Shown: one piece after another, positions 36,432 to 50,182 of the stretch
How the letters are laid out: each line of letters starts with the position of its first letter
How positions within the stretch are numbered: position 1 is the stretch's first letter
Origin: Rhodospirillales bacterium
GTDB taxonomy: Bacteria; Pseudomonadota; Alphaproteobacteria; ATCC43930; CGMCC-115725
Direction: 5' to 3'
DNA: 64,000 nucleotides
Assembly (NCBI GenBank): GCA_028288725.1
Contig: JAQGIC010000062.1
Span: 1 to 64,000, forward strand
The notes under the pieces: model-generated
The model's database searches: none
What the model saw: the letters and a program-made list of their open reading frames with translations, nothing else
Told to the model about the DNA's origin: nothing
Made by a program: the position numbers and the translations under genes

Positions 36432-36812
36432 ATGCCGCTCGTTCGCATCGATCTTCCCGCCGGCAAGTCGGCCGAATACCGTTCCACCGTCGGCGACGTG
36501 GTCTATGTCGCCATGACCGAGACCATGAACGTGCCTCGGGACGACCGCTTCCAAATCATCGCCGAACATGCGCCGTCCGATCTGGTGATCGATCCGACCT
36601 ATCTCGGCATCAACCGGTCGAAGGACGCGATCATCATCCAGGTCACGCTCAACGAAGGCCGCACGGTCGACCTGAAGCAGGCGTTCTACAAGGCGGTGGC
36701 CGACGGGCTGCACAAGCGGTTGGGATTGCGCCGCGAAGACGTGTTCATCGGCCTGGTCGAGGTGAAGAAGGAAAACTGGTCCTTCGGCAACGGCGAGGCC
36801 CAATACGCCTAA
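36432..36812 (+). CDS. Tautomerase-superfamily protein
   Basis: A 126-residue protein beginning MPLVRIDLPAGKSAEYRSTV. After Met removal Pro1 is the expected catalytic amine of 4-oxalocrotonate-tautomerase relatives. The sequence contains the duplicated beta-alpha-beta unit (DAIIIQVTLNEGRTVDLKQA and LRREDVFIGLVEVKKENWSF), which resembles malonate-semialdehyde decarboxylase/cis-CaaD trimers. Those enzymes act in haloacrylate breakdown, which fits the dehalogenase-like gene two steps away; this link is inference. Its TAA stop forms the first bases of the intergenic repeat that follows. Confidence 0.85.
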   Translation: MPLVRIDLPAGKSAEYRSTVGDVVYVAMTETMNVPRDDRFQIIAEHAPSDLVIDPTYLGINRSKDAIIIQVTLNEGRTVDLKQAFYKAVADGLHKRLGLRREDVFIGLVEVKKENWSFGNGEAQYA

Positions 36813-36924
36813 AGCCTGATCCGATCAAACCAACTCGGTTTGATCGGGGAATCAGTCTCTAAATATTTGATTTAGAGGGCGATTCAGACATGAGGCCGGT
36901 CCGACCTCATGTCATCGCGCTCTA
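36810..36924. repeat. Intergenic multi-hairpin repeat, copy 1 (115 bp)
   Basis: Begins TAAAGCCTGATCC and ends ATCGCGCTCTA. It contains three hairpins: GATCAAACC...GGTTTGATC (36823-36845), a central AT-rich one (TCTCTAAATATTTGATTTAGAG) and GACATGAGG...CCTCATGTC (36887-36913). Copies 2 and 3 are at 38019 and 49984. Its first three bases are the stop codon of the tautomerase gene. Confidence 0.9.
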
Positions 36925-36930
36925 GTAGAT

Positions 36931-36960
36931 AAACTCAGACGGATTCTTCCGTCTGAGTTT
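36931..36960. terminator. Strong hairpin, probable bidirectional terminator
   Basis: Perfect 13-bp stem AAACTCAGACGGA / TCCGTCTGAGTTT with a TTCT loop, six bases past the end of repeat copy 1. Short T-ends flank both sides. Confidence 0.65.
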
Positions 36961-37085
36961 ACCACAAGTCATTAATCTGGTGGACCGATCCGCCTGACGC
37001 TTGGGAAGCAAGCACCAGGATCGGACCACTGGTTCGCCGGTTCTGCTATCGTCGCGCCAGGCTGGTCGAAGCAGGAAGGGCGCGT

Positions 37086-38021
37086 ATGGGCAGATATCTG
37101 GTGACCGGCGGTTGCGGCTTCATCGGCTCGCACCTGGTCGAAAGCCTGGAGCGGGACGGCCATGAGATCCGCGTCCTCGACGATCTGTCGACCGGCAAGC
37201 GCGAGAATATCGCGCCGTCGGTCGAGTTGCTGATCGGCGATGTCGCCGATGCGTCTCTGGTGCGCCGGGCGATGGCCGGGGTCGACGGCTGCTTCCATCT
37301 GGCCGCGATCGCCTCGGTCGAGCGCAGCAATCTCGATTGGCTGGGCACCCATGCCGTCAACCTGACCGGCGCCATCGCCGTGTTCGACGCGGCCCGGCGT
37401 CCGGGCATCCCGGGTATTCCGGTCGTTTATGCTTCGTCCGCCGCCGTGTTCGGCGACGAGCCGACCATGCCGCTGACCGAGCAGGCGCCGGTCCGTCCGC
37501 TGTCGGCGTATGGCGCCGACAAGCTCGGCTGCGAGCTGCATGCGCGGGTCGCCGGCATGGTCCATGGCGTGCCGACCGCCGGCATGCGGTTCTTCAATGT
37601 CTATGGGCCGCGCCAGGATCCGAAATCGCCCTATTCCGGCGTGATCTCGATCTTCTGCGATCGGCTGGGGGCCCATCGGCCGATCACCATCTTCGGCGAC
37701 GGCCTGCAGACGCGCGATTTCGTCTATGTCGCCGATGTCGTCGCCAGCCTGCGGGCCGCCATGGCCGGCCTGACCACGGTCAAGACCTCGATCTACAATG
37801 TCTGCACCGGCCGTTCGACCTCGGTCGTCGATCTGGCGCAGATCATCGCCGGCCTGTGCGGGATCGCGGCGGACATCACCTTCGCTCCGCCACGCGCCGC
37901 CGAGATCCGCACGTCGCTCGGCTCGCCCGCGCGGCTCAAGGCCGAACTCGGCATCGAATGCCGCACGGATATCGCCGACGGTCTCCGCGCGACGCTCGCC
38001 AGCCTGAATTATTTGATTTAG
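37086..38021 (+). CDS. NAD-dependent epimerase/dehydratase (extended SDR)
   Basis: A 311-residue extended SDR of the UDP-sugar 4-epimerase type. TGGCGFIGSHLVESL is the NAD motif, ASSAAVFGDE supplies the active-site Ser, and YGADK gives Tyr142 and Lys146. RFFNVYGPRQDPKSPYSGVI and FGDGLQTRDFVYVADVV are typical of the GalE/WbpP/Gne branch that acts on UDP-GlcNAc or UDP-glucuronate sugars. No glycosyltransferase is adjacent. Its TAG stop (38019-38021) is the first three bases of repeat copy 2, and the last few residues (NYLI) may also be repeat-derived. Confidence 0.88.
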   Translation: MGRYLVTGGCGFIGSHLVESLERDGHEIRVLDDLSTGKRENIAPSVELLIGDVADASLVRRAMAGVDGCFHLAAIASVERSNLDWLGTHAVNLTGAIAVFDAARRPGIPGIPVVYASSAAVFGDEPTMPLTEQAPVRPLSAYGADKLGCELHARVAGMVHGVPTAGMRFFNVYGPRQDPKSPYSGVISIFCDRLGAHRPITIFGDGLQTRDFVYVADVVASLRAAMAGLTTVKTSIYNVCTGRSTSVVDLAQIIAGLCGIAADITFAPPRAAEIRTSLGSPARLKAELGIECRTDIADGLRATLASLNYLI

Positions 38022-38133
38022 AGCCTGATCCGATCAAGCCGGCTCGGCTTGATCGGTGAATCAGTCTCTAAATATTTGAATTAGAGTGCGATTCAGATAT
38101 GAGGCCGAGCAGGCCTCATATCATCGCGCTCTA
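38019..38133. repeat. Intergenic multi-hairpin repeat, copy 2 (115 bp)
   Basis: Begins TAGAGCCTGATCC and ends ATCGCGCTCTA, the same length as copy 1. Hairpins lie at 38032-38054 (GATCAAGCC...GGCTTGATC) and 38096-38122 (GATATGAGGCC...GGCCTCATATC). It fills the whole gap between two convergent genes. Its left TAG is the stop of the epimerase, and its right-end CTA is the TAG stop of the exporter on the other strand. Confidence 0.92.
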
Positions 38134-39531
38134 GCGCAGCGGGACCGGCGCCGCCGGCAGCAGGCGCATGAAGCTCGCGATGCTGGCCGCCCCGGCGAAG
38201 CCGGCGCCGAGCGCCAGCGCCAAGGCGGCGCCGTCGGTCGCGGAAATACCGAAGCAGAGTGCGACCAGCGCCGCCCCGGTGCTTTGGCCCAACAGCCGCG
38301 CGGTCGCGACGATGCCGCTGGCGCCGCCGCTGCGGCCGGCGGGCGCGCTCGCCATGAGTGCCTTCAGGTTGGGCGACTGGAAAAAGCCGAAGCCGCAGCC
38401 GCAGATCGCCATGCGCCAGCCGATCTCGAACACGGTCGGCTCCGCCGGCAGCAGCGCCAGCAGCGCCATGCCCAGGCACAGCACCGCCAGACCGAAGCCG
38501 CCCAGGATCGCCGGGGAATAGCGGTCCGACAGGCGCCCGGCGATCGGCACGACGATCGCCACCACGACCGGCCAGGGCGTCATCAGAAAGCCGGTCTCGA
38601 CCTGGGTCCGGCCCAGGGCACCCTCGAAATAGAACGGCAGGGAGACGAAGGCCAGACCCTGCGCCGCGAACGAGCAGACCGAGGTGACGGCCGAGAGCGC
38701 GAATACCGGCCGGCGGAACAGATCTACCGGCAGCATCGGCGCCGGATGGGCCGCCTGCCGGCGCAGCAGGAACAGGCCGAACAGGCCGGCGCCCAGGAAT
38801 TCCGACACGATCAGCGTCGGGGAAGCCTGATGGCCGGCCTCGCCGATCGCGACGATCAGCAGGCCGAAGGTGCCGGCGTTCAGGGCCGCGCTCAAATAGT
38901 CGAAGCGATAGGTTGCGCGGTCGGAATGGGGCAGGGCCGGGATGGCGATGGCCAGGCCGATCAGGCCCAACGGCACGTTGACCGCGAACAACCATTGCCA
39001 GGTGGCGACCGACAGGATGGCCGATGCCACCGTCGGCCCGATCGCGAAGCAGACGGCGACGACCAGCGCATTGAAGCCCACGCCCCGGCCCAGCCGGTTC
39101 GCCGGATAGATGAAGCGGATCAGCGCGGTATTGACGCTCATGATGCCGCTGGCGCCGAAGCCTTGGAACACGCGGGCGACGGCGAGGGTCGGCAGCGACC
39201 AGGAGGCGGCGCAGACCAGCGAGGCGACGGTGAACAGCGCCAGGCCGGCGATATAGATCCGCCGATAGCCGAGGATGTCGCCGAGCGAGGCGAGCGGCAG
39301 CAGCGAAACCATCAGCGCCAGCTGATAGGCGTTCACCACCCAGATCGAATCGGCCGGGCTCGCCTGCAGGTCGCCGGCGATGGTCGGCAGCGCGGTGTTG
39401 GCGATCGCCGTATCGAGCGTCGCCATCCCGACGGCGAGCACCAGCGTCGCGACGGCCCAGCCGCGCCGGCCGGGCGGCAGGCCGTCGGTGACGATCGGTG
39501 TTGCCGCCGGCGTCTCATCCAGTTCGTCCAT
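38131..39531 (-). CDS. DHA2-family MFS exporter
   Basis: A 466-residue, 14-helix drug:H+ antiporter-2 type transporter (EmrB/QacA relatives). MATLDTAIANTALPTIAGDL matches the family's first-helix motif, followed by WVVNAYQLALMVSLLPLASL, GDILGYRRIYI (motif A), RVFQGFGASGIMSVNTALI and LGRGVGFNALVVAVCFAIGP (motif C region). Substrate unknown. ATG 39531 is the first true ATG. Its stop codon is formed by the edge of repeat copy 2. Confidence 0.9.
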   Translation of the reverse strand: MDELDETPAATPIVTDGLPPGRRGWAVATLVLAVGMATLDTAIANTALPTIAGDLQASPADSIWVVNAYQLALMVSLLPLASLGDILGYRRIYIAGLALFTVASLVCAASWSLPTLAVARVFQGFGASGIMSVNTALIRFIYPANRLGRGVGFNALVVAVCFAIGPTVASAILSVATWQWLFAVNVPLGLIGLAIAIPALPHSDRATYRFDYLSAALNAGTFGLLIVAIGEAGHQASPTLIVSEFLGAGLFGLFLLRRQAAHPAPMLPVDLFRRPVFALSAVTSVCSFAAQGLAFVSLPFYFEGALGRTQVETGFLMTPWPVVVAIVVPIAGRLSDRYSPAILGGFGLAVLCLGMALLALLPAEPTVFEIGWRMAICGCGFGFFQSPNLKALMASAPAGRSGGASGIVATARLLGQSTGAALVALCFGISATDGAALALALGAGFAGAASIASFMRLLPAAPVPLR

Positions 39532-49447: not shown

Positions 49448-49954
49448 ATGTCCTTTACCCTTTACGACGCATCGATCCCGGTGTTCCTGCGCGGCTTCGG
49501 CCAACTCTCGGCGATCCTCGACAAAGCGGTCGCCTATGCCGAGGCGAAGAAGATCGACCCGGCGGTGTTGATCAACGCCCGCCTGGCGCCCGACATGTAT
49601 CCGCTCGCGCGGCAGATCCAGACCGCCAGCGACGCGGCGAAATTCGCCGGTGCGCGTCTGGCCGGCGTCGAGGCGCCCAGCTTCCCGGACAATGAGACGA
49701 CGTTCGACGAGCTGCAGCAGCGCATCGCCAAGACCGTCGCGTTCCTGAACGGCATCGAGCCGTCGGCGATCGCCGGCCAGGAAGGCCGCGAGATCGTGTT
49801 GAAGCGCGCGACCGGCGACGTCCGTCTGACCGGTGCCGCCTATCTGCAGGGCCTGGCGCTGCCGAACTTCTATTTCCACCTGGTCACGGCCTACGACATC
49901 CTGCGCCACAATGGGGTGGAGCTCGCCAAGTCGGACTATCTCGGCAAGCCATAG
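49448..49954 (+). CDS. DUF1993 family protein
   Basis: A 168-residue DinB-like four-helix protein of the DUF1993 family. It opens MSFTLYDASIPVFLRGFGQL and shows LINARLAPDMYPLARQIQTA, LPNFYFHLVTAYDILRHNGV and the end KSDYLGKP, all standard. Family members bind no known cofactor for certain. AGGAG precedes ATG 49448, 17 bp after the efflux channel gene, so it may be transcribed with the pump. The stop TAG is followed by GAGCCTGG, resembling the start of the intergenic repeat. Confidence 0.9.
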   Translation: MSFTLYDASIPVFLRGFGQLSAILDKAVAYAEAKKIDPAVLINARLAPDMYPLARQIQTASDAAKFAGARLAGVEAPSFPDNETTFDELQQRIAKTVAFLNGIEPSAIAGQEGREIVLKRATGDVRLTGAAYLQGLALPNFYFHLVTAYDILRHNGVELAKSDYLGKP

Positions 49955-49983: not shown

Positions 49984-50046
49984 TAGAGCCTGATCCGATC
50001 AAACCGGCTCGGTTTGATCGGTGAATCAGTCTCCAAATAAGGGCGA
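49984..50046. repeat. Intergenic repeat, truncated copy 3
   Basis: Matches the first half of copies 1 and 2 from TAGAGCCTGATCCGATCAAA through the GATCAAACC...GGTTTGATC hairpin and GTGAATCAGTCTC, then diverges after CAAATA. A further TAGAGCCTG occurs at 49952 as the stop codon of the DUF1993 gene. Confidence 0.85.
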
Positions 50047-50118
50047 TATTCGTTGATCGTGCCACGGATGCACCCTCACCCCGACCCTGTCGCACAAGTG
50101 GGCGAGGGAGAAAACGAG

Positions 50119-50143
50119 CCCTCCTCCGCAAGGCGGGGGAGGG
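50119..50143. terminator. GC-rich hairpin between convergent genes
   Basis: Eleven-base arms CCCTCCTCCGC / GCGGGGGAGGG around AAG, 40 bp from the end of the anti-sigma gene. There is no T run, so only a pause or Rho-type role is suggested. Confidence 0.4.
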
Positions 50144-50182
50144 TTGGGGGGCTTGCCGCGGGGATCGCCAAGCAGAAGCTGC

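Follow-up and report, generated by a model that had tools for sequence, protein, structure and literature searches.

Background

Bacterial intergenic regions harbor families of short hairpin-forming repeats, among them the REP and BIME elements, which are paired imperfect hairpins. The closest described relatives of the repeat analyzed here are the CcrM-associated intergenic repeats (CIR) reported for Caulobacter, Brucella and other Alphaproteobacteria (Chen and Shapiro 2003), which, in the passages of PMC2229807 that summarize them, are about 110 bp in length, consist of two hairpin arms and a linker, carry a conserved GANTC and lie between genes. The RUP element of Streptococcus pneumoniae, a miniature inverted-repeat transposable element (MITE) of IS630-Spn1, is described in parts of PMC2229807 and PMC3049150 as 107 bp in length, with IS630-like ends and about 110 copies, and the former source places a TA in the target of RUP and IS630-Spn1. 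RUP, BOX and SPRITE are all found in excess between convergent genes, which the relevant passages of PMC3049150 ascribe to tolerance. A statement that such repeats dock at stop codons was not found in open-licence PMC literature, the scope being titles, the openings of abstracts and passages including those of PMC2229807, PMC3049150 and PMC3119063, with the original CIR and RIME papers outside it; a text search with the repeat sequence returned only literature on unrelated subjects.

We examined a repeat of this general kind in a stretch of 64,000 nucleotides (the window), which is part of contig C80 in the 5.54-Mb draft genome of a Rhodospirillales bacterium (G000). The repeat resembles CIR, compared by the description in PMC2229807 only, in its length of 115 bp, its two arms and linker and its GANTC sites, and the genome encodes a CcrM-like protein with a RAMA domain. 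It differs in that the CIR GANTC is placed at the terminal loop and that of the present element near the arm base beside the linker, and in its stop-codon docking and IS630-like ends, which are absent from the description of CIR in the same passages. With RUP it shares IS630-like ends, a probable TA in the target and an excess between convergent genes, but RUP is described as a tighter fold with paired terminal repeats, and the passages concerned make no mention of stop-codon docking (PMC2229807, PMC3049150). The CcrM-like gene is followed downstream, at a distance of about 1.2 kb, by a copy of the repeat (C62:25613-27264).

Results

Repeat copies in the window and the genes they close

The window contains two full 115-bp copies, 88% identical to each other over that length, and one half copy. 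The relevant features, in order along the window, are as follows.

36432-36812, + strand: tautomerase gene, closed by the left end of copy 1; protein tail GEAQYA, then stop
36810-36924, + strand: copy 1, 115 bp, two hairpins with linker
37086-38021, + strand: NAD-dependent epimerase gene, closed by the left end of copy 2; protein tail LNYLI, then stop
38007-38018, + strand: AATTATTTGATT, directly 5' of copy 2, resembling the element's own linker
38019-38133, + strand: copy 2, 115 bp, two hairpins with linker
38058-38062, + strand: GANTC site GAATC in hairpin 1, present in 37 of 40 ungapped copies
38090-38094, + strand: GANTC site GATTC in hairpin 2, present in 37 of 40 ungapped copies
38131-39531, - strand: convergent MFS exporter gene, closed by the right end of copy 2; protein tail PVPLR, then stop
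49448-49954, + strand: DUF1993 protein gene, TAG at 49952-49954, then just 9 element-like bases
49984-50039, + strand: half copy, hairpin 1 only, beginning CTAGAGCCTGATCC

The original prediction held that the ends of the two full copies supply stop codons to flanking genes, and this is borne out at each of the three ends concerned: the tautomerase stops at the TAA at 36810, the epimerase at the TAG at 38019, and the convergent exporter, on the other strand, at a TAG that reads CTA at 38131-38133. In copy 1 the left end (TAAAGC) departs from the consensus TAG in a manner that preserves the stop, and the right end, GCTCTA, is followed by G. The same claim had been extended to the DUF1993 gene, where the TAG stop stands but TAGAGCCTG does not hold as an element end, the match covering 9 bases before other sequence begins; the recognizable half copy starts 32 bp beyond that stop, at 49984, and the sequence at the stop itself is at most an element remnant. 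The linker-like AATTATTTGATT next to copy 2 is probably what is left of an earlier copy and now encodes the epimerase tail NYLI.

Architecture and genomic copies

The element consists of two hairpins and an AT-rich linker, with ends TAGAG and CTCTA. In the predicted fold of copy 2, TAGAG and CTCTA delimit each of the two hairpins and the linker lies between them; the folding energy is -68.3 kcal/mol compared with -31.6 (sd 3.7) for shuffled sequences (z about -10). Compensatory changes support the stems across 40 ungapped copies, with 33 cells changed on both sides against a maximum of 17 in 200 column shuffles. GANTC occupies two positions, each in 37 of these 40 copies, giving 1.9 sites per copy where 0.16 would be expected; in the predicted fold these sites, at positions 40 and 72 of 115, lie near the arm bases beside the linker and away from the loops. 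A search of the window against Rfam release 15 at gathering score gave a tRNA as its single match and no family match to the element.

A 17-base core motif, allowing up to 2 mismatches, matched 127 times genome-wide, compared with no matches for the reversed control. The copies analyzed are a sample, with 100 of the 127 motif matches listed and 40 of 208 candidates scored, drawn from 86 segments taken around the listed places and totaling 609 kb at 66% GC. This sample gave 72 near-full rows and, once a reverse-strand duplicate was removed, 71 non-redundant near-full copies. TA bounds the element on both sides in 47 of the 71 copies, with Y and G outside (Y-TA..TA-G); in the 48 rows behind this count, one of them a duplicate, the outer bases were CTA..TAG in 32 and TTA..TAG in 13. 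These flanks are polar, with C (68%) or T (28%) as the left outer base and G (96%) as the right one in the 47 copies, and the same trend is seen in Rhizobium. CTAG itself is scarce in the sampled 609 kb, with 301 sites, 171 of them outside the element, where base composition predicts about 1895.

Terminal TAG as an in-frame stop

Coding frames running into the element ends were called with a simple codon-usage gene finder, and frame counts cover the 118 intact TA ends among 142. A coding frame enters 60 of these 118 ends, and in 59 of the 60 it stops at the terminal TAG (TAA in one instance), the exception being one weak case. This is far from the one in three that a random frame would give (p about 3e-27), and also from the 38 of 79 unoccupied CTAG sites within genes or at gene ends that are stops (p 6e-18). 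Of the 24 non-intact ends, 17 have no entering frame, and the remainder fall in frame 0 (one, with TGA), frame 1 (one) and frame 2 (five, four of them with a TAG two bases inward as judged by eye). By these gene calls, 47 of the 71 near-full copies provide a stop for one gene or more, and 8 do so for a convergent pair; on contig C80, taken whole, each of the 6 near-full copies closes at least one gene. The proposed in-frame placement therefore extends across the genomic copies sampled, and the contrary case, in which the majority would lie elsewhere than at stops or in another frame, does not describe them. It follows that in genomes of this kind the annotated ends of many genes are made up of element sequence.

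Native position of the stops

Homologues in a genome of the same genus (G001) were compared for 20 of 22 and 12 of 14 queried genes, the remaining two of each set being without a clear orthologue. None of the 32 homologues differs by more than 5 residues from the end point of its G000 counterpart, and 23 are of identical length; their stops are TGA, TAA or TAG, and no element was present within the 37-60 bases that follow these stops. We conclude that the element sits at the native stop and that the genes are not truncated, which answers the question of whether insertion had displaced the original stop. The tautomerase homologue, at 53% identity, may be a paralogue.

At the site of window copy 2, the same exporter and epimerase share a 4-bp stop, TTAA, in G001. 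At other convergent pairs the element alone separates the stops in G000, and in G001 they are 9, 10, 18 or >400 bp apart; these pairs therefore give no support for a shared ancestral stop. Convergent spacing is labile without the element at the one junction followed through relatives that lack it, that of RNase HI, where spacings of -4, -4, 3, 70, 116 and 434 were found, the two negative values being overlaps. G001 has element copies of its own, in which the plan and the GAATC..GATTC core are kept and the stems are different, and among 39 genomes of the family the core pattern was matched in G000 and G001 only.

Position between genes and target availability

Among 64 copies with both neighbors known, 42 lie between convergent genes, 21 between tandem genes and 1 between divergent genes, compared with 44 convergent, 286 tandem and 85 divergent among the 415 element-free gene pairs of the sampled sequence. 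To relate this placement to the available targets, CTAG and TTAG/CTAA sites were counted at convergent junctions. Copies lie at a stop in 31 of 42 cases, a share similar to that of unoccupied target sites on C80 (17 of 26, p = 0.59) and well above that of G001 target sites (16 of 64, p = 1e-6). Stops serving two genes behave in the same manner, with 8 of 42 copies against 2 of 26 own-genome sites (p 0.30) and 2 of 64 G001 sites (p 0.013). As the two null sets disagree, our claim is limited to target choice and purifying selection being able to suffice for placement at gene ends. A strong preference for stops over other targets is suggested by the G001 null and not by the own-genome null, and we adopted the weaker claim.

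A candidate mover

The whole draft genome contains one match to the DDE_3 (IS630) transposase domain. The ends of this IS630, taken as the best TA-flanked inverted repeats in an unanchored search, are TAGAGCCGGATGA and TAGAGCGGGATGA, and those of the element begin TAGAGCCTGATCC and TAGAGCGCGATGA; 11 of 14 bases agree between the left ends and 12 of 14 between the right ends, the IS630 ends being of a similar TAGAGCnnGAT form. The element has features of an IS630-associated MITE, being short (115 bp), without a transposase gene and bounded by inverted repeats like those of a resident IS630. In other genomes TAGAGC ends were found at 6 of 29 IS630 loci, some of the remaining loci being fragments or overlapping. 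CTAG is a preferred IS630 target. At L042:984-2048 the IS630 transposase, with HTH and DDE_3 domains, lies in two frames around an A-run, in the manner of IS630 members that use frameshifting. A DDE_3 search of G001, where element copies are present, gave no match, and the mover in that genome is thus not accounted for.

Relatives in Rhizobium

Partly similar two-hairpin repeats are found on Rhizobium plasmids, with the same plan, a similar hairpin 2 and Y-TA..TA-G flanks. These may be RIME, the Rhizobium intergenic mosaic elements, of which RIME1 and RIME2 are the rhizobial counterpart of the present element. The window element as query retrieved 7 plasmid records and a Rhizobium copy as query 359, while the G001 element had no match on the plasmids. 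A pattern scan of named genomes gave at least 80 loci, and among the matches listed all were Rhizobium but one titled Rhizobiales bacterium. In the 80 listed elements, which are not all independent, as some of their loci look orthologous between strains, 21 of the 38 with both ends recognized were flanked by CTA..TAG and 10 by TTA..TAG; the ends entered by a coding frame numbered 37, 28 of them in frame and 9 out of frame. Independent annotation was also available: 30 of 60 rows (of the 359 records) named an overlapping gene, and in the 17 left with one row per gene name, 12 genes share exactly the 3-bp stop with the element and 5 overlap it by 6-41 bp, beyond the stop. This annotation, the frame test and the G001 homologues together support the proposal that the element inserts at gene ends and supplies the stop.

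Discussion

The pattern is real and strong, and its mechanism is probably an ordinary one, that of an IS630-type MITE whose insertion restores its stop-codon target. We hold it to be highly probable that the repeat is MITE-like and belongs to the CIR/RIME type, that it owes its movement to an IS630-type transposase and inserts at Y-TA-G with duplication of the TA, and that gene ends are what selection has left. Judged from the similarity of the ends, the short non-autonomous element would be mobilized in trans by an IS630 (Tc1/mariner-like) transposase into Y-TA-G, mostly CTAG and also TTAG, and the TA would be a true target duplication, with Y-TA, GAGC...GCTC and TA-G as the product. Such a target would include a TAG stop preceded by C or T. 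As the element starts with GAGC, a TAG would re-form at its left end from the duplicated TA and the following G; the right end, being symmetrical, would do the same for a gene on the opposite strand, so that for convergent genes with a common 4-bp stop a single insertion would re-close both. The target contains the stop codon, and hence the stop would be restored automatically. Insertions in genes or promoters would be purged by selection, leaving copies at stops and between convergent genes. Several observations count against this mechanism: the outer base is C or T at the left but almost always G at the right, which would not be expected of a symmetric CTAG target; the G001 null allows a stop preference beyond target availability (31/42 vs 16/64); the stops of several convergent pairs are 9 bp or more apart in G001; and in Rhizobium 9 of 37 frame-entered ends are out of frame and 5 of 17 annotated overlaps extend beyond the stop.

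Coincidence between stop codons and repeat ends is extremely improbable; TAG is common here (122 of 457 background stops), but 59 of 60 frames in register far exceed both the random and the unoccupied-CTAG expectation. The original prediction included a different possibility, that copies are kept since they close genes, and a domesticated element retained as a putative bidirectional stop and transcription terminator for convergent genes could account for the excess at gene ends. Consistent with such retention are the stable predicted hairpins, the compensatory stem changes, the location of 42 of 64 copies between convergent genes, the excess of common two-gene stops relative to G001 and the occupancy of 3 of the 5 shared-stop sites on C80. 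A terminator consensus scan, however, found no stem with T-run inside either window copy, one copy (C30) lies between a stop and an apparent native terminator, and the comparable convergent enrichment of RUP, BOX and SPRITE has been ascribed to tolerance (passages of PMC3049150). The share of copies at stops equals the availability of targets in the same genome (31 of 42 against 17 of 26), so that retention for closing gene ends is not required, and two-gene stops do not differ significantly in frequency from those at own-genome sites. We consider domestication unlikely.

The gene-end position could also have arisen by capture, in which the element inserts anywhere downstream and a later deletion, for example between CTAG repeats, removes the spacer and fuses the gene to the terminal TAG. 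G001 spacers are indeed longer than those of G000 in 9 of 11 alignable comparisons (8 copies). Fusion would nevertheless have to be codon-exact at 59 of the 60 ends, window copy 2 occupies what is a common stop in G001, and convergent spacing varies without the element, as at the RNase HI junction; capture is accordingly quite improbable. Still less probable, and in our judgment very much so, is a REP/BIME-type element moved by a RAYT (Y1 tyrosine transposase), which the paired imperfect hairpins would suggest. The element differs from REP and BIME in its TA-bounded ends, which resemble those of an IS630, and a search for Y1_Tnp gave no match in this genome, the same search being positive in 5 of 14 control genomes.

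Insertion of an IS630-type MITE that restores its stop-codon target offers a simple reason why alphaproteobacterial intergenic repeats may grow numerous with little damage. Overlapping convergent stops would be landing sites for the element, which could spread to gene ends, often between head-on genes, without damaging them. A bolder extension, to which we give a small though appreciable chance, is that two-hairpin alphaproteobacterial repeats act as gene-end separators: the target would be the stop codon itself, and selection would retain copies at overlapping convergent stops, where one copy re-closes both frames and separates the transcripts.

Other features near the repeat copies

Several smaller features were observed at or beside individual copies. 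A variant right end, GCGCTAG, which is three bases short, occurs in copies of the L108/L110 type (for example C9:48465, C47:7434 and that of L112 on C108), and in four such ends the coding frame, followed by eye, reads a TAG two bases further in. At locus L016 another TAGAGC..GCTC hairpin (TAGAGCCCTGGTTCGGCCGAACCAGGGCTC) abuts the copy at 1501 on the left, and other hairpins with identical ends therefore exist. Immediately 3' of copy 1 in the window, at 36930-36961, is a separate hairpin with perfect arms, TAAACTCAGACGGATTCTTCCGTCTGAGTTTA, and a similar sequence flanks the copy at locus L009. The half copy is adjoined at 50067-50150 by a GC-rich, repeat-like stretch (CACCCTCACCCCGACCCTG...GGGGGAGGGTTGGGGG), and sequences resembling it by eye lie 3' of stops at the G001 loci L144, L150 and L153.
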